DNA of 32,833 nucleotides from Pseudomonadota bacterium (lineage in GTDB: Bacteria > Oederibacteriota > Muellerivitia > Muellerivitales > Muellerivitaceae): the NCBI GenBank assembly GCA_021324075.1, contig JAJPJW010000098.1:1-32833 (forward strand), read 5' to 3'. Every line of letters begins with the position of its first letter. The stretch's first letter is position 1. Positions 11,066-27,619 of this stretch are shown one piece after another. A program made the translations under genes and the position numbers. The notes beneath the pieces are model-generated. The model worked only from the letters and a program-made list of their open reading frames with translations, was not told the origin of the DNA and made no database searches.

Positions 11066-11100
11066 GCCGTTCCCGCTTTGGCGGGGCGGCTTTTTATTTT
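11066..11100. terminator. Bidirectional rho-independent terminator between glyA and the TolB-like genes
   Basis: The stem GCCG-TT-CCCGC, loop TTTG and return GCGGG-G-CGGC (11066-11090) is followed by a T-rich run at 11091-11100 on the plus strand. On the minus strand the same hairpin is followed by TTTTG. It lies between the convergent ends of glyA (11038) and the minus-strand gene ending at 11094, whose stop codon lies inside the T run. Confidence 0.88.
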
Positions 11101-12134
11101 CCAACAGGTGTGGGCAGGCCGGAGGGTTTGGAAACCGCGGGGGTCATCATTGTAGCGGATTGGGCCGGGACATCGCTTAAGATGCGGGCCGGGGCCCAGG
11201 AGGGGGAAGCGACGTTATCCGAGGACAAGACCTTTAAATCGGTGCCGTTGACGTTCGCCAAGTTGAGGCTCAAGCCCACGTCCTCGCCGGTACCGTAAGT
11301 GCAGTACAGGAGTTTGTGGTCGTTTTGCGCGAAGCGCGGGCAAAGGCTGCGGCTATTGCTGGTGATGTTCAAGGGACCCGTTCCATCGGGCCCGACCGTA
11401 TAAATCTGGGTTTCATTTTGCCTATAAAGGTTGAAAAGGATCTTCCGGCCGTCCGCTGAAAAGCTGGGGGACCCGACGTTCCAATCGGTGTAATTGGTCA
11501 GCTTTTTGAGGGCCCTGTCCGAGAGGTTCAGGCTCCAAAGATTGAAGGCCGTGTCATCCCCCATGGAAATGAAAACCACCGACTTCCCATCCGGGGAATA
11601 GCAAGGGCAAAGGGCCTTGTGTTCCGACAGCAAGGTCTCGGGGTTGAAACCGTCCGAATCCATCGCCCAGATGTCGCCCTCGAGGCTGTAGATGATCCTC
11701 TTTCCGTCCGTGCTCCAGGCGGGTGAATTGTTGACGAGAAGGTTTTGGTCGCCGGAACCGGCCGTATTGCCTTCGTCGAAAGTCAGCTGCACACGGTTGG
11801 AACCGTCCAAGTTGATCTTCCAAAGATTGTAAACCTCGCCTTCGGCGTTGGACCAGTAAGCCACCTGGTCGCCCTTGGGGGAGCAGGCAGGGAACCATTC
11901 GGTGCTTTTTCCACTGGTCAAGGGGGTGGTTTGGGAGGAATCCAGGTCCAAACGGACCAAATGCCCCCGCTGGACGTAAACAACGCTGCCGGGGGGAACC
12001 ACAGCGGTGGGGGTGGGGGGCGGAAGGGGAGCTTCCACTTTTTTAGGTTTGCAGCCCAAAGTCCCCAGTGAGGCGAGGAGGCATAGGGCCAAAGCGCAGA
12101 CCGCCAGTCGCCGCAACAAAGGATTTTGTTTCAT
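11094..12134 (-). CDS. TolB-like beta-propeller lipoprotein (downstream copy)
   Basis: Secreted protein of 346 aa with an N-terminal lipoprotein-type signal (basic start, hydrophobic core, candidate lipid Cys at residue 28 in GTLGC) and a short Pro-rich linker. A WD40/PD40 beta-propeller like the C-terminal domain of TolB follows. Repeats are readable from their WFPACSPKGDQVAYWS, PAWSTDGKRIIYS, PCYSPDGKSVVFIS, PSFSADGRKILFN and PRFAQNDHKLLYC cores, each followed by a strand naming the variable (NLWKINLDGSN, DIWAMDSDG). It lacks the N-terminal TolB domain, so it is not a true TolB. It lies 7 bases behind a longer paralogue, so the two probably form one transcript and may assemble together at the envelope. 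Function and partner are unknown. Confidence 0.82.
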   Translation of the reverse strand: MKQNPLLRRLAVCALALCLLASLGTLGCKPKKVEAPLPPPTPTAVVPPGSVVYVQRGHLVRLDLDSSQTTPLTSGKSTEWFPACSPKGDQVAYWSNAEGEVYNLWKINLDGSNRVQLTFDEGNTAGSGDQNLLVNNSPAWSTDGKRIIYSLEGDIWAMDSDGFNPETLLSEHKALCPCYSPDGKSVVFISMGDDTAFNLWSLNLSDRALKKLTNYTDWNVGSPSFSADGRKILFNLYRQNETQIYTVGPDGTGPLNITSNSRSLCPRFAQNDHKLLYCTYGTGEDVGLSLNLANVNGTDLKVLSSDNVASPSWAPARILSDVPAQSATMMTPAVSKPSGLPTPVGK

Positions 12135-12141
12135 AACACGC

Positions 12142-13461
12142 TCACTTTTTGGACCAATTGGGCGATTGGACGCCGATCAAGGCCACCCGGTGCTTGTTGG
12201 TCCCAGTGGCATCCATGATCCAGAGATCGCCCGATTGGACATAGGCGATTTTAGACCCGTCGGGGGACCAGGTAGCGTCTTCGACTCCGGGATCGGTTAA
12301 AAACTTAAGGACCCCGGTGTCAGGAGAACCTTTGGAGGCGGTGGCCATCAATGCCACGCGGTAATCCGGGTCGGCGGCATATTGCTTGGCCAAGAGCATC
12401 AGATTTCCAGCCGATTCGGAAGGGGAATAGGCCACCAAGGGCCCCAATTCGGGGCAAGGATTGGTCAGGACCAATTTGGGCTGGGAATTCTGGGAAGATG
12501 CCGTGAAAAGGGTTTTCGACCCGACCAAATAGGCCACATCCCTCGCGTCCGAGGTCCAAGAAATATCCGTGAAGGGCTCCGATCCGGAGGCAAGTTTTAG
12601 GGAATCCTTCAAACGCGGATTTACCAATAAGAGCGATGTGTAGTTCACGCCCTGGTGCACGATGAAAGCCACAAACTTGTTGTCGCGGTGCGGGGCCCAT
12701 TCCAAGGCGGAGACAATGTTGTTGGGATCGTCGGTGTAAAGGGTCTGCAATTCGTGGTTTTCAACATTGACCTTCCAAACTTGGTTTTGGTAACAAAAGG
12801 CGATCTCGTCGCTCTTAGGGGACCAGGAAAAAGGCGGCTTGAGGTGGGAATAAGTCGGCAGGGCCATATCGTTCAAGAAAGTGAGCTGTTGGAGGTTGGA
12901 ACCGTCCTTGGCAACGACAAAAAGGTTCATTTTTCCTTCCTTCATATCCGAAAGGAAGGCAAGAAGCTTCCCGCTGGGCGACCAGAGGGGGAACCAACTG
13001 CTGGTTCCCAAGGGCGTTAGACGGACCCGGTCCGTCCCATCCGTGTTCATGGTCCAAAGGTCGGGCTTCCCTTGTTCCAAGGTGGTATAGGCGATTTTTT
13101 CCATTTCCTGCGGTGTAGCAGTGGCCGTGGGGGTTCCGGTGGCCGTGGGTTTGGCTTTTGTAATGTTCATTTCGACTGGAACTTCATTGTTGCCTTGTTG
13201 TTTGGGCGTGGGTTTAGCCCCTACGGGAGGGGCCAAAGCCTTGGAAAGGCTCACCGGGGCCGAAACGGCGGCGGAAACTGGCGCGGAAGACGCGGAAATA
13301 GGGTTTGAGGGAGCGGCGGAAGGGGGGGGCGTCACGGGCTTAAAAAAAGGAAGGGAACGCTTGCCGCAACCGGGAATGTTAACGTCGCAACCGGAGGAAA
13401 TTAGAAGCAGGAGCAACAGCATCGCGGAGAAGATGGATAGGCTTTTTAAGGTTTCGCGCAA
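12142..13461 (-). CDS. TolB-like beta-propeller lipoprotein (upstream copy)
   Basis: Secreted protein of 439 aa. A signal sequence ends in ISSGC (candidate lipid Cys at residue 25). It is followed by about 100 residues rich in Pro, Ala, Ser and Thr, which probably span from the membrane, and then a PD40/TolB-type propeller from about residue 115. Readable blades include IAYTTLEQGKPDLWTMNTDG, WFPLWSPSGKLLAFLSD, PFSWSPKSDEIAFC, DISWTSDARDVAYL and DATWSPDGSKIAYVQSGD. The start is a TTG at 13461 preceded by GGGGAA on the minus strand; no ATG fits. It has its own promoter in the preceding gap. It is a paralogue of the next gene, but with a longer linker and more divergent blades. Role unknown. Confidence 0.8.
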   Translation of the reverse strand: MRETLKSLSIFSAMLLLLLLISSGCDVNIPGCGKRSLPFFKPVTPPPSAAPSNPISASSAPVSAAVSAPVSLSKALAPPVGAKPTPKQQGNNEVPVEMNITKAKPTATGTPTATATPQEMEKIAYTTLEQGKPDLWTMNTDGTDRVRLTPLGTSSWFPLWSPSGKLLAFLSDMKEGKMNLFVVAKDGSNLQQLTFLNDMALPTYSHLKPPFSWSPKSDEIAFCYQNQVWKVNVENHELQTLYTDDPNNIVSALEWAPHRDNKFVAFIVHQGVNYTSLLLVNPRLKDSLKLASGSEPFTDISWTSDARDVAYLVGSKTLFTASSQNSQPKLVLTNPCPELGPLVAYSPSESAGNLMLLAKQYAADPDYRVALMATASKGSPDTGVLKFLTDPGVEDATWSPDGSKIAYVQSGDLWIMDATGTNKHRVALIGVQSPNWSKK

Positions 13462-20779: not shown

Positions 20780-21280
20780 ATGGGCAAAATCCTGATTTTT
20801 AGTTTGGCGTTATGGGCGGCTGCCGGCATCCTTCAGGCTGGGGGCCCGTCCAAATCCAAAGACAAGGGGAGATATATGGGGGACAAGATCGTCAAGACCG
20901 ACGCCGAGTGGAAGGCCCAACTAACCCCTGAGCAATACGATGTCCTGCGTCAGCACGGTACCGAAAGGCCCTTTGGAAAAGGCGGCCTTTGGGAAAACCA
21001 CGAGAAAGGCGTCTATGTCTGCGCGGCCTGCGGCTTGGAGCTCTTTTCCTCCGATACCAAGTTTGAATCCGGCACGGGCTGGCCCAGTTTTTTCAAACCC
21101 CTCTATCCGGAAAATGTCGCCACCGAGGAGGACGATTCGTTTTTCATGCGCCGCGTGGAGGTCCATTGCCCGCGTTGCGGGGGCCATTTGGGCCACGTCT
21201 TCGAGGATGGCCCCCAACCGACGGGACCCCGCTATTGCATCAACGGGGTCTCCTTAAAATTCATGTCCGACAAGAAGTAG
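20780..21280 (+). CDS. msrB: Peptide-methionine (R)-S-oxide reductase, exported form
   Basis: Reduces methionine-R-sulfoxide in proteins; 166 aa. The start was placed at the ATG behind GAGGGG (about 20771), which yields a clean signal peptide ([20 protein letters not shown]), so the enzyme is probably periplasmic or lipid-free secreted; an ATG at 20753 is the alternative. The MsrB fold shows [30 protein letters not shown] (95-105), two zinc-binding pairs C81/C84 and C130/C133 ([12 protein letters not shown]), and catalytic C153 in [11 protein letters not shown]. The usual second redox Cys in the RQ-x-GTE region is His59 here, so no classical resolving cysteine is seen. It sits alone between the cyclase and the GT-C-like gene, and no msrA is present. 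Confidence 0.9.
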
Positions 21281-21304
21281 CACGATCTTCCTGCCGGTAA
21301 ACCT

Positions 21305-21334
21305 TGCCGAAACCGCCCTTTTGCCTTTAAATAC
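21305..21334 (+). promoter_or_regulatory. Candidate promoter for the GT-C-like/glycosidase pair
   Basis: TTGCCG (21305-21310) is 18 bases from TAAATA (21329-21334), about 60 bases before the ATG at 21394. The match is moderate, and the 113-base gap contains no other obvious element. Confidence 0.3.
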
Positions 21335-21393
21335 GAGATTCCAAATGCCCCGGTAAACGCCGGAGGGTCTCGGATTTATTTAAAGGAAAGTCG

Positions 21394-23169
21394 ATGCGCG
21401 AGTGGAATAAACCGGCCAGTACCCTTCTCTTGGGATTCGGGCTTTGGACCCTTTGCCTTTACCTCTACCTTTCCCACCTGTCCTTTAATTACACCTTCGA
21501 CGGTTTGGCCATGTCCGGCCAGGTCGAAAAGGACAGCACCCCCCTCTACCTCTTCTTCCATCCCCACCACCTGCTTTACACTTTTCTAGGCCGGTTGTTT
21601 TTCCTTTGGGGGAGGGACCACGGGGCAACCTGGGACGGCTTGGTCGCCCTGCAGGTCCTCGACTTGATGACCGGACTGGCGGGGGTCCTTTTGGCTTTTC
21701 ACCTTCTGGTCCGGGAAACCAACGACCGCTTGGTAGCCGCCCTGGCGGCCGCAGGCATGGCCTTCTCCCACAGTTACTGGTATTTCTCCACGATCCCGGG
21801 TGTGAGGATTTTCGCCACTGTCACACCCCTTTTGGCCTGGTACCTTCTCACCTACCAAAAAAGGATGCCGGCCGCCTTCGGTTGGGTCACCGGTTCGGCC
21901 CATGGTTTGGCCGTGCTGGGACACCAGACAAACCTCCTGCTCGTGCCCGCCTTTTTGGGCGCCATCCTGATTCTGAAGGAAAAGACCTGGTGGGAAAAAC
22001 TCAGGGCCTGCCTTTATTACTTGGTTTCCTTGACCCTGATCGTCCTGGCCGCTTATGGGCTGGTCGGCCGCTATGTCAATTACCGCAAGACTTTCCACGA
22101 CTGGTTATGGTGGGTCTTTTCCTATTTCCACTCGCCCCAAAACTGGGGCGGTCACTTCGATAAGACAGGCTTCGGGCACGGCCAATCCGCCATGGTGAGG
22201 GCCTTCCTTCCCCACACCCGCCCCCTGGACAATATGGCCGAGCCCTTCACCTTCGGGAGCGCGGAAACAATCCTCCAATGTTCCGTTCTCTTCCTTTTGG
22301 CGGTATTCCTCCTGCGCCTCCCGCACTATTGGAAGCACAACCGCCAAACCCTTTGGGTGGCCGTCACCTGGGTGGCGGCTTTCGTCCCCTTTTTCGTCTG
22401 GTGGGAACCCTGGAACATCGAATTCTGGGTTTCCTCCACCGTGCCCTGTTGGATCCTGATGGGGGTCGTGGGGGCGGACCTGTCCCAACTTTGGAAAAAC
22501 CCGGTCCTTCATTTTGCCAACCGCGGAATGACGATCTGTCTCTGGACCTTCCTGATCACCCTGCTTTTTTTCCACAATGCCGAGGGCAGGGGCAGCAAAC
22601 TGGTGGCCAACCACTACGACTTTCAGGAACTGTTGGGCGCCTTGGATTGGAAAGTGCGCGCGGACGACGTACTCGTGTTGGATGGGATCAACAACGTGCA
22701 TTACTACCTCGACCGTTTTCAAAAAAGAAAATACCTGAGCCTCTATAATTTTTTGCGCACTTATAAAACGATCGGGGACAAGGAAACCGGGAAAAACCCG
22801 GAAAAGGAAAAAAACAAGAAGGCGTCGGCAGGGCCGGACCCCTGGGGCGACCTTTCGGAGGTGTTCCAGGATGCCTGGAAGCGACACCGCAAGGTTTGGG
22901 CCCTCACCGAAACGGTGGACAGCATCGACGGGGGACGCCAATTGCTGGAGGAAACCCTGAAACTGCCGGAAGGGACCATCCGGGAATACTTCGTCAATAC
23001 CTACAAATTGAAACCCATCGCTTACCATAAAAAAGTGTATTTCTACGAAGTGTTAAAACCGGTTCCGACTCCCGCTGCAGCAACAGTACCATCCGAATCC
23101 GCGGTCGATTCGGCCCCGACAACCGCTCCCCAGCTTCCCAAAAAAGAAAAACCGGGTAAAAAACCATGA
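21394..23169 (+). CDS. Multi-spanning membrane protein, GT-C glycosyltransferase-like
   Basis: A 591-aa integral membrane protein. About ten hydrophobic segments occupy residues 10-395, followed by a soluble tail of nearly 200 residues that ends in a Pro/Ala/Thr-rich, then Lys-rich stretch. The first outside loop carries an acidic residue (FTFDGLAMSGQ, D36) and a histidine cluster (FHPHHLLY, 55-62), a layout seen in GT-C enzymes that transfer sugars from lipid-phosphate donors (PMT/DUF2723-like). Other polar, possibly functional spots are GHQTN (176-180) and WWEPWNIEFW (336-345). I cannot assign a family with certainty, and a non-catalytic membrane role is possible. The ATG has AAAGGAAAG upstream. 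Its TGA overlaps the ATG of the following giant glycosidase-like gene, so the two are almost certainly made together. Confidence 0.6.
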   Translation: MREWNKPASTLLLGFGLWTLCLYLYLSHLSFNYTFDGLAMSGQVEKDSTPLYLFFHPHHLLYTFLGRLFFLWGRDHGATWDGLVALQVLDLMTGLAGVLLAFHLLVRETNDRLVAALAAAGMAFSHSYWYFSTIPGVRIFATVTPLLAWYLLTYQKRMPAAFGWVTGSAHGLAVLGHQTNLLLVPAFLGAILILKEKTWWEKLRACLYYLVSLTLIVLAAYGLVGRYVNYRKTFHDWLWWVFSYFHSPQNWGGHFDKTGFGHGQSAMVRAFLPHTRPLDNMAEPFTFGSAETILQCSVLFLLAVFLLRLPHYWKHNRQTLWVAVTWVAAFVPFFVWWEPWNIEFWVSSTVPCWILMGVVGADLSQLWKNPVLHFANRGMTICLWTFLITLLFFHNAEGRGSKLVANHYDFQELLGALDWKVRADDVLVLDGINNVHYYLDRFQKRKYLSLYNFLRTYKTIGDKETGKNPEKEKNKKASAGPDPWGDLSEVFQDAWKRHRKVWALTETVDSIDGGRQLLEETLKLPEGTIREYFVNTYKLKPIAYHKKVYFYEVLKPVPTPAAATVPSESAVDSAPTTAPQLPKKEKPGKKP

Positions 23170-26100
23170 CCCGGAATATGGGAACTTTGTTTCTTTTAAA
23201 TTCGCTGCTCCTGATCCCGGCCGGGGCCGGGCTTTCAGGGGAACCCCTGACGCCCCTGGTGGCGGCCGCGCCCGCGCCAATGACCGCCACTGCGGCCGTC
23301 CCCACTCCAACGCCTTCCACCCAATCCCTTGAAAAAGCGGGTGCGGACTTTCTGAAGGACCGCCCCTGGCTTTCGGACCTTTATTCCTGGAACGAAACTT
23401 TTGACATGGACCACCAAAAAGTAGAGGCCAACAAAAGCGGGGCCTACTGCGTCGGCAATGGCCGCAGCTTCGCGCTGGTCGGCCTTTCGGCGCCCCTCTG
23501 GAACTGGTCCAATATTTACGGCGCTTCCTACCAGGAGCCGGACCTGGGAAGCATGCATATGAGCGTGACCCGGGCCGGCCAGGACATCGACACGCCCAAA
23601 CAACAGATTGGATGGGTGCGGCGTTCGGGCGTGATAAAGGTGCGTGCCGAAGGCCAGGCGCTGTCAGTGGAAAGTTACGATTTTGCGCCGGTGGCGCCTT
23701 CGGATAACAATGCCTGGGACAACCCGGCCGTCCTCGTACGGTTGGTCCACCTCGTCAATTCGGGCGGCCAGGACCAAAACGACCTGGATATCGAGCTGAA
23801 GGTCCAGCCCGAATGGAACCTCAAATATGAGGTCAAGGATGAAGAGCGGGATGTCCTTTGGGAGCAAAAGCCGAAGAAGCCGAAGAAAAAAACCTTTTGG
23901 CGCCTGGGTTCCTTTGCGCCGAAAAGGGCCAAGGTCTGGGACCACAGCCTCCATTACAGCGTCCCCAGCCTCAAAGCCGGGGAGGAAGCCTGGGCGGCAT
24001 TCTACCTGGTTTCAGCCAATTCGCAGGGGGACAACAGCGCCCAGACCGAGGACATCAAAAAGAAGGGACCCGTCAGGTTGTTGGACGAGACCCGGGACTA
24101 TTACGCGGCCTGGTTCGAGAAGGGAACCACCTTTTCGGGGGACCCCAAGATGGCCGACCTTTTTGAGATCGAGTCGCTCATTTTCAAGTCCCAACAATCC
24201 TATTCGGGAAGCTTCACGCCCATCATCGGCTATACCTATGCCTGGATCCGGGACAATAACGGGCCCATCCGCTGGTTCCTGAAAACCGGCCACCTGGATG
24301 AAGCCAAAAGGGCCATGGAATTTTTCTACGGCGTGGCTTCCACCGCCGGGTCCCTGCCCAACAGCATCCGCGTGGACTACCCCTTGGACTACCATTTCAA
24401 GGATCTTTCCCACATGCGCGTTGAATTCGCCGAAACGCCCAACTGGATCGTCCTGCAATACTGGTGGTATTACCTGACGACCGGGGATATCGAACTTGTC
24501 CGTGCCCGGTGGAGCTACCTCAAGCGCTGCATCCTCGGCCAGCTCAATATCGACGACAAGTATTTTTTCCAAAGGGACGAAACCTATCTTTGGTGCCTGG
24601 AGTCCCGCATTTTCGATTATGTCCCCTTTCCCAACTATTACCTTTCCACTTTCGGCTTTTCCACCGATTCAAGCTTTGAACTGGTTTCGGCCGCCGACCA
24701 CCTGGCCTACCTGGGGAAATACCTGGAAATGGACAAGGACGTTTCCTATCTCAAAAAATTCGCCGATGAGGTCAGGACCAAGACCGAACAAAATTATTGG
24801 AATGAAAAGGCGGGATATTGGGCCCCCGCCCAATCCCTTTTGGGCCCGCTTTACAACGCGCCCTTCGCCAACATCCTGCTCAACCCCTTTTGGTGCGGTT
24901 ATGCCCGCAACGACCTGAGCCCCCTGGGAGAAACCCCCAAAAGCCAGGTGAAGGCGGTGGACGCCATTAAGAACGCCTATCCCTGGCTGGGCCGTCCCGA
25001 CGGGTTTTGGAAGACAACGCCCACCGTTGATTTCTACGTGGGAATGAATCCCGGGCAATTGCTGTACGACCTGTGCAAGGTCCGGCTGCCCTGGGCCGCC
25101 CTGGCCTACCAGGCCACCTTAAAGTCCGCCACACCCTCGGGTGATTTCACCGAGATGTACGACGGCAATTACCACCCCTGGAACCCGCCCTCCCTGGGCG
25201 TGGGGACCACTGGAAGGGTCAGGCCCTGGGAGGGGGGACTTAATACCGAAGCCCTTTTGGACTACCTCACGGGCTTTGCCCCGGACGCGGGCAACGGAAA
25301 GGTGGTCTTTTCACCCCACCTGCCGGAAAACATGAAGGAATTCAACGCCTCGCACCTCTGGGTTGGACCTGCCCGGGTTTCCCTCAGCATGAAGAGGACC
25401 GGGTCCAGGGAATGGAGTTTCACCCTGCATTTGGACCGGGGGGAGCAACTGGATGTGACGGCGGATTTTTGGCCGGGAACCCGCATGATCGCGGGGTTGG
25501 AACCTTCGGGGGAAGTGGCCTGGGACAAGACCCTGTCGGATACCGACGGACGGGAAGGGCTTTGCCATTTCACCCTGGAGGCGGACCAGGATTTTTCCTT
25601 CACCGTATCCGAGGGTTCCAAGCTCCCCGACGAAGAGGCTGTCCCGCCCAAGCCCCAGGCCTTCCAACCCGACCCCTACAGCGTCGACAGCGGGGAACTC
25701 CTGCTTTTGACTTCACCCACGGCGGTCCTCAACCGGCACCGGTATAAATACGTGGACCCGGAAAATTTCCTCTCAACAGGCAAGAGTGAATGGAAGCTCA
25801 TGGAGAAGGTCGCCCATTCCAAGGCGTTTTTGGACATGGACCTTCCGGTCTCCGCCGACGACCTGGCCCACGCCCTTTTGGACGACAAGGGCCGGCCCCG
25901 GTTCCGCCTGGCGGTCTTCGGGCGCGGAGTTTTTTCCTCCGGCAACCACCATTTCAAACCCGATCTCTATTGGGCCGATCCCAAAGTGGGGCAGGCGGTG
26001 AAAAAATACCTGGAAGCGGGGGGCTGCCTTTACCTGGGGCCTTCCTTCCCGAACCGGGAGGACCTGCCCGACTGGTTCGTCAATTTGACCGGCGGCTGGG

Positions 26101-26876
26101 AGGAAGGGACGCTGGCGGACAAGGTGGTGGTCAGCGAACCGGCGAAGATGCAGGCCAACCAGAAATTTTTGGACGAGGTGAGCGTGAATAACGCCGGTTC
26201 GGAGGCCTCCCATTCGGTCACCTTTGCCGGTGAGACTTTTGAGGACAGCCAGAACCTCCCGGACAGCCAGAACGAGAAAAGGATGATCCAGGACCAGGGA
26301 AGGGGTTTCACCGGCTATTACCAATTCGCCGTCAAGACCGAACCCGGCGTCAACCACCGGCTTTGGATCCGCGTCAATACGGGCCACAATATCAAGGGCA
26401 TGGCCCTGCAGGTCCAGGACGGTGACGACTGGAAACAGGTCGGCGTACGCACCCAAGCCGACGGGACAACCCGGCACTTCCTGGCCCTTTACTTCGACAT
26501 CCCGCAAAAATACATTACCTCCCCCCGGACGGTGTTTCGCTTCATCTCGAAAACCGAGGACGAGGTCAACCTCTACCATCTTTGGATGTACAAACTGGAG
26601 GGCGGCTCCAGCCAGCCCATCGCCCAGCTCCTCGGTTTTTCCCCCGACCAAGCCGTGGGGGAAGTCGCGCACGGCCTCCTGCCCAAGGGAAACGAATGGC
26701 GCAGCCCCCTTCTTTTGTCCCAACATCCCGAACAAGCGGCCTTGCTCATCCAAAAAGTAGGGAAAGGCTACCTGATCCGCACCGAACTGGCTTTGGAGGA
26801 TTCGCTCGGCCTCTTAAGGGCCCTTTTAAAGCCTGAAACCATGGATGCTTTGGACGATTCCTGGTCCGGTTCTTGA
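23166..26876 (+). CDS. Large exported six-hairpin glycosidase-like protein
   Basis: A 1236-aa protein with a signal peptide (about 1-24), a Pro/Thr/Ala-rich linker (28-52) and a beta-sandwich region (about 70-300). An (alpha/alpha)6-barrel of the six-hairpin glycosidase superfamily (GH15/GH63/amylo-1,6-glucosidase-like) follows at about 320-715. Barrel features are GYTYAWIRDNNGPIRWFLKTG (355-375), VEFAETPNWIVLQYWWYYLTTGD, QRDETYLWCLESRIF and GRVRPWEGGLNTEALLDYLTGF, where E689 is a candidate acid residue. A short beta region (720-815) precedes an alpha/beta part (about 843-990), a probable jelly-roll (about 1015-1145) and a final alpha/beta tail (1152-1225). The substrate is unknown; an alpha-glucan or surface glycan is possible. 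It is coupled to the GT-C-like gene by an ATGA overlap and followed by a terminator. Confidence 0.7.
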   Translation: MTRNMGTLFLLNSLLLIPAGAGLSGEPLTPLVAAAPAPMTATAAVPTPTPSTQSLEKAGADFLKDRPWLSDLYSWNETFDMDHQKVEANKSGAYCVGNGRSFALVGLSAPLWNWSNIYGASYQEPDLGSMHMSVTRAGQDIDTPKQQIGWVRRSGVIKVRAEGQALSVESYDFAPVAPSDNNAWDNPAVLVRLVHLVNSGGQDQNDLDIELKVQPEWNLKYEVKDEERDVLWEQKPKKPKKKTFWRLGSFAPKRAKVWDHSLHYSVPSLKAGEEAWAAFYLVSANSQGDNSAQTEDIKKKGPVRLLDETRDYYAAWFEKGTTFSGDPKMADLFEIESLIFKSQQSYSGSFTPIIGYTYAWIRDNNGPIRWFLKTGHLDEAKRAMEFFYGVASTAGSLPNSIRVDYPLDYHFKDLSHMRVEFAETPNWIVLQYWWYYLTTGDIELVRARWSYLKRCILGQLNIDDKYFFQRDETYLWCLESRIFDYVPFPNYYLSTFGFSTDSSFELVSAADHLAYLGKYLEMDKDVSYLKKFADEVRTKTEQNYWNEKAGYWAPAQSLLGPLYNAPFANILLNPFWCGYARNDLSPLGETPKSQVKAVDAIKNAYPWLGRPDGFWKTTPTVDFYVGMNPGQLLYDLCKVRLPWAALAYQATLKSATPSGDFTEMYDGNYHPWNPPSLGVGTTGRVRPWEGGLNTEALLDYLTGFAPDAGNGKVVFSPHLPENMKEFNASHLWVGPARVSLSMKRTGSREWSFTLHLDRGEQLDVTADFWPGTRMIAGLEPSGEVAWDKTLSDTDGREGLCHFTLEADQDFSFTVSEGSKLPDEEAVPPKPQAFQPDPYSVDSGELLLLTSPTAVLNRHRYKYVDPENFLSTGKSEWKLMEKVAHSKAFLDMDLPVSADDLAHALLDDKGRPRFRLAVFGRGVFSSGNHHFKPDLYWADPKVGQAVKKYLEAGGCLYLGPSFPNREDLPDWFVNLTGGWEEGTLADKVVVSEPAKMQANQKFLDEVSVNNAGSEASHSVTFAGETFEDSQNLPDSQNEKRMIQDQGRGFTGYYQFAVKTEPGVNHRLWIRVNTGHNIKGMALQVQDGDDWKQVGVRTQADGTTRHFLALYFDIPQKYITSPRTVFRFISKTEDEVNLYHLWMYKLEGGSSQPIAQLLGFSPDQAVGEVAHGLLPKGNEWRSPLLLSQHPEQAALLIQKVGKGYLIRTELALEDSLGLLRALLKPETMDALDDSWSGS

Positions 26877-26898
26877 GCTTTGGAAATGGAAAGAGCGG

Positions 26899-26924
26899 CC
26901 GGGGTGCAAAGGACCCGGTTTTTT
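26899..26924 (+). terminator. Rho-independent terminator after the glycosidase-like gene
   Basis: The stem CCGGG(G)T / ACCCGG, with one bulged G and a 7-base loop (26899-26918), is followed by six T residues (26919-26924). It lies 23 bases past the stop codon. Confidence 0.7.
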
Positions 26925-26956
26925 GGTAAATTAAACGCCGTTCAAAGGATGGGGTT

Positions 26957-27619
26957 ATGAAAGCACCGGTCATCAACATTTTCAAAAAAAACCACCCCGA
27001 AGGGGGCAAAGCGGCCGGCAGTGAACACCCGCTTCGGTCCAAGATGTCCCCGGCGCCTTCGGCCGCACCGGCTTCTTCCGACCTCACCTTCAAAGCCACG
27101 CCGTCCTGGTGGGTTGCAGCCGGAGCTTATATCCTCGCCGCCTTTTTTTGCTATTGCGTCCACCAATTTTTTCTTTGGTTCCCGCCTTATCTTAAGGAGG
27201 TTTTCCTGAACCTCAAGGGTTTGCCCATGGCTTGGGCCGACCTGGGCCTCCTTTGGGGGGAAAAGATGCTTGTTTGGATCGCCATCGCCGCGGCGATTTA
27301 CCATAACCTTTGGCAGGTGGGGACCCGCTATCAATTGACGGCCCATGACGTCAACGTGGAAAACTGGTTTCCCATGCACCGCGTGGTTTCCGCCCCTTAC
27401 GGGTCGGTGAGGCGGGTGGGCTTCCAACAAAGCCCCCTGGGTTTTGTCCTCAACTATGGCCAGGTCGAAATCGACACAGGCAGCCCATCGGGCCCGCTGG
27501 TTTTGCTCAACTGCCCCAAGCCCGCCAAGTTTGTCTCGCTTCTTCAGCCCAAGGTGGAGGCTGTAATCCAACCGGGTTTGGCCTCCCATGTGCGCCGAAG
27601 TACCGATCCTCACGCCTGA
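26957..27619 (+). CDS. Membrane protein with bacterial PH (bPH2/YdbS-like) domain
   Basis: A 220-aa protein. It has a polar, Pro/Ala/Ser-rich N-terminal tail (1-48), two membrane helices (about 50-75 and 95-117) and a cytoplasmic bacterial pleckstrin-homology domain (about 121-200). The domain carries RYQLTAHDVNVEN, a strand ending SVRRVGFQQSPLGFVLNYGQVEIDTG and LNCPKPAKFVSLL. The order RY-x-LT, then V--V--QS-LG----YG-VEI-TG, then P-----L matches the bPH_2 (YdbS/YdbT) pattern. Such proteins are thought to act at the membrane, but their roles are mostly unknown. ATG at 26957 follows an AAGGA site. It stands alone between a terminator and the DAHP synthase promoter, so it is probably a one-gene unit. 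Confidence 0.75.
   Translation: MKAPVINIFKKNHPEGGKAAGSEHPLRSKMSPAPSAAPASSDLTFKATPSWWVAAGAYILAAFFCYCVHQFFLWFPPYLKEVFLNLKGLPMAWADLGLLWGEKMLVWIAIAAAIYHNLWQVGTRYQLTAHDVNVENWFPMHRVVSAPYGSVRRVGFQQSPLGFVLNYGQVEIDTGSPSGPLVLLNCPKPAKFVSLLQPKVEAVIQPGLASHVRRSTDPHA

Follow-up and report, generated by a model that had tools for sequence, protein, structure and literature searches.

The window analysed here is an entire contig of 32,833 bp from a 3.57 Mb draft genome in 228 contigs, the named close relatives of which are candidate division FCPU426 records. Coordinates refer to the forward strand unless stated otherwise. Two long reading frames are located where the initial annotation had placed them. The first (21394–23169) encodes a 591-residue membrane protein, predicted to be a GT-C-type glycosyltransferase (hereafter GT) on the basis of conserved residues, PDB fold matches and a weak PMT_2 match. 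The second (23166–26876) encodes an exported, six-hairpin glycosidase-like protein of 1236 residues (GH), which was assigned from an N-terminal hydrophobic segment, PDB fold matches and a 17-member alignment. The frames share an ATGA start/stop overlap (23166–23169), as had also been described. A −4 overlap, formed by ATGA or GTGA, is present in five of the six other FCPU426-family genomes (G001, G002, G003, G004 and G006), and the sixth (G005) has an overlap of −11. Because the −4 overlaps recur in family relatives, the overlap is not a product of chance. Beyond this family, values of −29, −1 and +10 were obtained for the spacing, and the two frames overlap or lie within 10 bases of each other in all 10 phylum genomes that hold them.

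The genes neighbouring the pair are those for adenylate cyclase, msrB, aroG, plsC and rpsA, together with a gene for a bPH_2-domain protein (discussed below). None of the genes adjoining the pair encodes a donor-synthesis enzyme, a polyprenyl-phosphate sugar synthase or a flippase. The GC3 values of GT and GH (0.72 and 0.75, respectively) are as high as those of the neighbouring genes. Recent import was considered on the basis of base composition and set aside, as both GC and GC3 fall inside the range of the neighbours. The promoter proposed upstream of GT was not recovered: the scan gave no sigma-70-like match in 21280–21394, and promoter-like matches across the region were as frequent as in shuffled sequence (3 versus 3.0). 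The proposed terminator fared better, as a hairpin followed by a T-run is located at 26897–26925. Its loop exceeds the limit of the scanner and only some relatives have such a structure, and we regard it as a plausible terminator. Elsewhere in the window, two adjoining TolB/PD40-type beta-propeller proteins are encoded on the minus strand (11094–13461), and G006 has similar neighbours.

GT has approximately nine hydrophobic segments. The first loop, which is predicted to be extracytoplasmic, contains the conserved residues Asp36 and His56, His58 and His59, in agreement with the acidic and histidine residues originally pointed out there. In an alignment of 11 homologues, there is little or no variation at Asp36, His59, His177, Trp240 and the WWEPxNxEF region, and Asp36 is invariant at identities of 22–67%. 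Relatives were recovered from the genome contigs by an alignment-based scan, whereas a single-sequence scan of the same contigs found none. No curated Pfam or NCBIfam family matches GT above its cut-off. The only recurrent Pfam match is PMT_2 (PF13231), which is found in 6 of the 11 family members (1e-6 for the best member). The GT of the window itself scores 15.9 bits, compared with a gathering cut-off of 26.1 (E = 0.015), and a distant relative in G011 scores 26.7.

The AlphaFold models of GT and GH were built on shallow alignments (7 and 9 sequences, respectively), and that of GT is of middling confidence (pLDDT 64.7). Six PDB entries match the GT model at E ≤ 0.001, all of which are PglB/STT3-type enzymes or complexes that hold STT3, including translocon complexes. 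The next matches are PimE, ALG3, AftA, AftB and Emb, with probabilities of 0.92–1.00 for PimE, ALG3 and AftA. The best fold matches are thus GT-C enzymes, not transporters, and the model shows GT to be a GT-C enzyme at the level of the fold, as the initial annotation had suggested. GT resembles PglB/STT3, PimE, ALG3 and AftA/AftB in its many membrane helices and its first-loop aspartate (Asp36), and a lipid-linked donor is expected. In PimE, the first-loop aspartate (Asp58) is the proposed catalytic base (PMC12041525). In contrast to these enzymes, GT shows no sequence match over the curated cut-offs and carries a His-rich H-P-H-H motif in the loop. The sugar donor would be a polyprenyl-phosphate sugar.

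These matches bear on the kind of acceptor. GT might be a PMT/STT3-like protein O-glycosyltransferase and GH might trim the protein-bound glycan, which would be a special case of the add-and-trim scheme presented below. PMT_2 as the sole recurrent Pfam match and oligosaccharyltransferases as the best fold matches point in this direction. However, PMT_2 stays under its cut-off in the window GT, the TM-scores of the oligosaccharyltransferase matches are low (0.35–0.44), and the GT-C fold is common to enzymes with many kinds of acceptor. We therefore consider protein glycosylation unlikely as the specific function.

GH has a single hydrophobic segment at its N-terminus (residues 5–26), which we read as a signal peptide. 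Its model, also of middling confidence (pLDDT 65.4), has a helical barrel flanked by a beta sandwich and a beta domain. There are 143 PDB matches at E ≤ 0.001 (best E = 1.4e-15), and those listed nearly all have the six-hairpin fold, with GH94, GH65, GH95, GH78, GH116 and GH15 among the families represented. The beta sandwich, six-hairpin barrel and beta domain are features that GH has in common with GH15, GH65 (PGGHG), GH94, GH78 and GH63/MGH1 enzymes. However, unlike members of the (alpha/alpha)6 glycosidase families, GH reaches the cut-off of no single family and has an extra C-terminal region of approximately 400 residues. The glycosidase-like barrel noted at first sight was thus borne out, whereas a placement in GH15, GH63 or GH37 was not, and the assignment holds at the fold level only.

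The putative active site is well conserved. In 17 relatives with identities down to 23%, the residues Tyr356, Trp360, Arg362, Asp363, Asp471, Glu472, Thr473, Glu663, Arg686, Trp688 and Glu689 are invariant, and the conserved catalytic-type residues in GT and GH together span identities of 23–75%. Tyr356, Trp360, Arg362 and Asp363 belong to a YxxxWxRDNNGP motif (residues 356–367; 24231–24266) of the GH15 sugar-binding type. In the profile of the 17 relatives, the WxRD portion aligns with ‘GYHLVWSRD’ of a bacterial GH15 glucoamylase (1lf6). The DETY motif (residues 471–474; 24576–24587) contains the probable general acid Glu472, and the RPWEGG motif (residues 686–691; 25221–25238) contains the probable general base Glu689. 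These roles are suggested by spacing and by comparison with GH15: Glu472 and Glu689 are separated by 217 residues, which is similar to the 221 residues between the acid and base of glucoamylase, Glu179 and Glu400 (PMC4837477). Glu472 and Glu689 would thus form the acid/base pair of an inverting glycosidase. Glu423 was also examined as a catalytic residue but was rejected, because it is replaced by Asp in two relatives.

The closest structural neighbours of GH are GH94 phosphorylases, followed by GH65 enzymes, and the GH profile also gives a match to the GH94 domain of cyclic beta-1,2-glucan synthase. GH might accordingly act mainly as a transglycosylase, a phosphorylase or a glycan-binding scaffold that sets chain length, as the GH94 domain does in that synthase. 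Against this reading, which we judge quite unlikely, Glu472 and Glu689 are invariant at the positions where an inverting acid/base pair is expected; to our knowledge, phosphorylases lack a catalytic base.

Sequence families do not narrow the specificity further, as GH falls below every curated Pfam and NCBIfam cut-off. It scores 12.6 bits on the GH15 family PF00723 (cut-off 22) and 13.4 bits on the GH78 alpha-L-rhamnosidase family PF17389 (cut-off 24.5), and one relative from another phylum scores 30.1 bits on the latter. Among relatives from other phyla, scores exceed the cut-offs for MGH1-like_GH, Trehalase and, once, Bac_rhamnosid6H. These matches support membership of the predicted superfamily rather than a particular specificity.

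The C-terminal extra region (residues 840–1236; 25683–26876) is missing in most relatives outside the phylum, and no Pfam or PDB family was found for it. A weak match to 4jqs, which we take to be a ThuA-like protein, offers a lead. Partial versions of the region occur at L040 and L106. The relative at L040 (8001–10589) belongs to an uncultured bacterium that is not one of the named relatives, and no GT homologue was found in its flanks.

The distribution of the two genes was examined in 45 genomes of the phylum. GT homologues scoring above 600 bits and GH are present in an identical set of 10 genomes and in no others. These genomes fall into three families, namely FCPU426 (seven genomes), a family that holds Firestonebacteria (G010 and G030) and a third family (G018). 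The naive probability that the two sets coincide by chance is 3e-10, which is too strong given the relatedness of the genomes; seven of the ten belong to one family, and a fair count is approximately three independent lineages. GT and GH adjoin in 9 of the 10 genomes, in the same order with GT first. In G030, one contig closes with GT and the opening codons of GH, and another begins with the remainder of GH. The two genes are therefore neighbours in every genome that holds them, once across a contig break, and the pair sits at more than one chromosomal locus across the three families. In another genome of the same phylum (G011), two tandem GT-C-like homologues of GT are found without a GH of this kind (L064: 2–2934).

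The initial annotation had described a two-gene module. The linkage of GT and GH holds, but the extent does not: in FCPU426 the module comprises three genes, the third of which (26957–27619) had been overlooked. This gene encodes a 220-residue membrane protein with a bPH_2 domain (PF03703, just over the cut-off). It lies directly 3′ of GH in all eight genomes in which it accompanies the pair, namely every pair-bearing FCPU426 genome (seven) and the Firestonebacterium G010. It was found only in genomes with both GT and GH, and elsewhere in the phylum there is one weak match (35 bits). The copy in G010 is homologous to that of the window (E = 2e-12), and the cassette of G010 occupies an unrelated locus, surrounded by MFS, rhaB-like and rhaA genes. 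G030 lacks the bPH_2 gene, and the contig of G018 ends where the gene would have to be judged.

The edges of the cassette in FCPU426 are sharp, because in G008, a genome of the same order, msrB and aroG adjoin without it. G008 retains the run hisC-tyrA-aroA-cmk-msrB-aroG-plsC-rpsA with a gap of approximately 56 bp between msrB and aroG. The difference may reflect either a gain in FCPU426 or a loss in G008. The absence of the module from G007 was not counted as a true loss, because its contig stops inside rpsA and the site is not assembled.

The surroundings of the cassette in Firestonebacteria raise the possibility of a catabolic function, in which the exported GH would release a sugar such as L-rhamnose from external glycans or from glycans undergoing turnover, the cell would take this sugar up, and the linkage of the GT-C protein would have another cause. 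In both Firestonebacteria, genes for a rhamnulokinase-like FGGY kinase and L-rhamnose isomerase are located 3′ of GH (L074: 15681–18618; L076: 3315–6283), an MFS transporter gene lies upstream (the family match was tested in G010), and 7 of the 11 family members show weak Bac_rhamnosid6H matches. However, RhaA was found in none of the FCPU426-family genomes, and rhamnose specificity was rejected as a general reading on this ground. Catabolism alone also poorly explains the tight overlap with the GT-C frame in three families, and the GH15-like WxRD motif would argue for a hexose with an O6 atom rather than a 6-deoxy sugar. Salvage is thus a rather unlikely main function.

Seven GH-bearing genomes outside the phylum were tested. 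Six of them have no GT homologue; only G079 has one, and it does not adjoin GH. The relatives of GH elsewhere mostly occur without such a GT, and a GH of this type can therefore do without GT. Within the sample searched, the pairing of GT with GH is characteristic of this phylum. The distant GT homologue in G079 is found in a glycan locus, where its neighbours encode a priming sugar transferase and a methyltransferase. A relative of the GH catalytic domain is also encoded in G224, a genome from a different phylum, approximately 740 bp upstream of, and on the same strand as, an 869-residue multi-spanning TPR protein (L105: 5760–11906). A motif of the latter resembles that of AftB-type GT-C enzymes, and the locus is possibly an independent association of a GH with a GT-C protein. 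A common origin of the TPR protein and GT was considered, and hhalign found none.

The linkage of the cassette genes is an observed property of these genomes. Since the genes occur and lie together in relatives, they probably build and trim one surface sugar, although the linkage of GT and GH alone does not imply a shared substrate. In the scheme that we prefer, GT would take a sugar from a polyprenyl-phosphate carrier at the outer face of the inner membrane and transfer it to an envelope acceptor. The co-translated GH, probably an inverting (alpha/alpha)6 glycosidase, would remove or shorten the product of GT and thereby set its final length or terminus. The bPH_2 membrane protein would probably anchor or regulate the pair, which is the weakest step of the scheme. 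We assign a probability of about 0.5 to a conserved three-gene extracytoplasmic glycan cassette that adds and then trims. The fuller version is put forward more tentatively: a GT-C enzyme and a glycosidase of an undescribed family may act sequentially on one acceptor with a bPH_2 partner, as a dedicated envelope glycosylation system whose three-gene cassette has sharp edges in FCPU426 and occupies a different locus in Firestonebacteria.

Known systems offer partial parallels. In the eukaryotic endoplasmic reticulum, the GT-C glucosyltransferases ALG6, ALG8 and ALG10 add sugars and glucosidase I (GH63, (alpha/alpha)6) removes them on the same side of the membrane. The division of labour is similar, with a GT-C enzyme adding and an (alpha/alpha)6 glycosidase removing, but the analogy is functional only, because the eukaryotic genes are unlinked, belong to other organisms and have no demonstrated sequence kinship to the cassette. 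The three-component Gtr-type systems for extracytoplasmic glycosylation (PMC11127046) likewise use a GT-C enzyme with a lipid-linked sugar outside the membrane, as predicted here. In contrast to those systems, the cassette adjoins no polyprenyl-phosphate sugar synthase or flippase gene; its additional genes encode a glycosidase and a bPH_2 protein.

The cassette belongs with GT-C transferases that have partner enzymes, and it is real and larger than first described. GT and GH fall below the curated Pfam and NCBIfam families, yet their genes stay together across families of a mainly uncultured phylum. If confirmed, the system would represent a new combination of a transferase and its trimming glycosidase outside polysaccharide clusters, and GH would be a candidate for a new glycoside hydrolase family with an unexplained C-terminal region. 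It would also open the envelope glycans of FCPU426 to specific tests.
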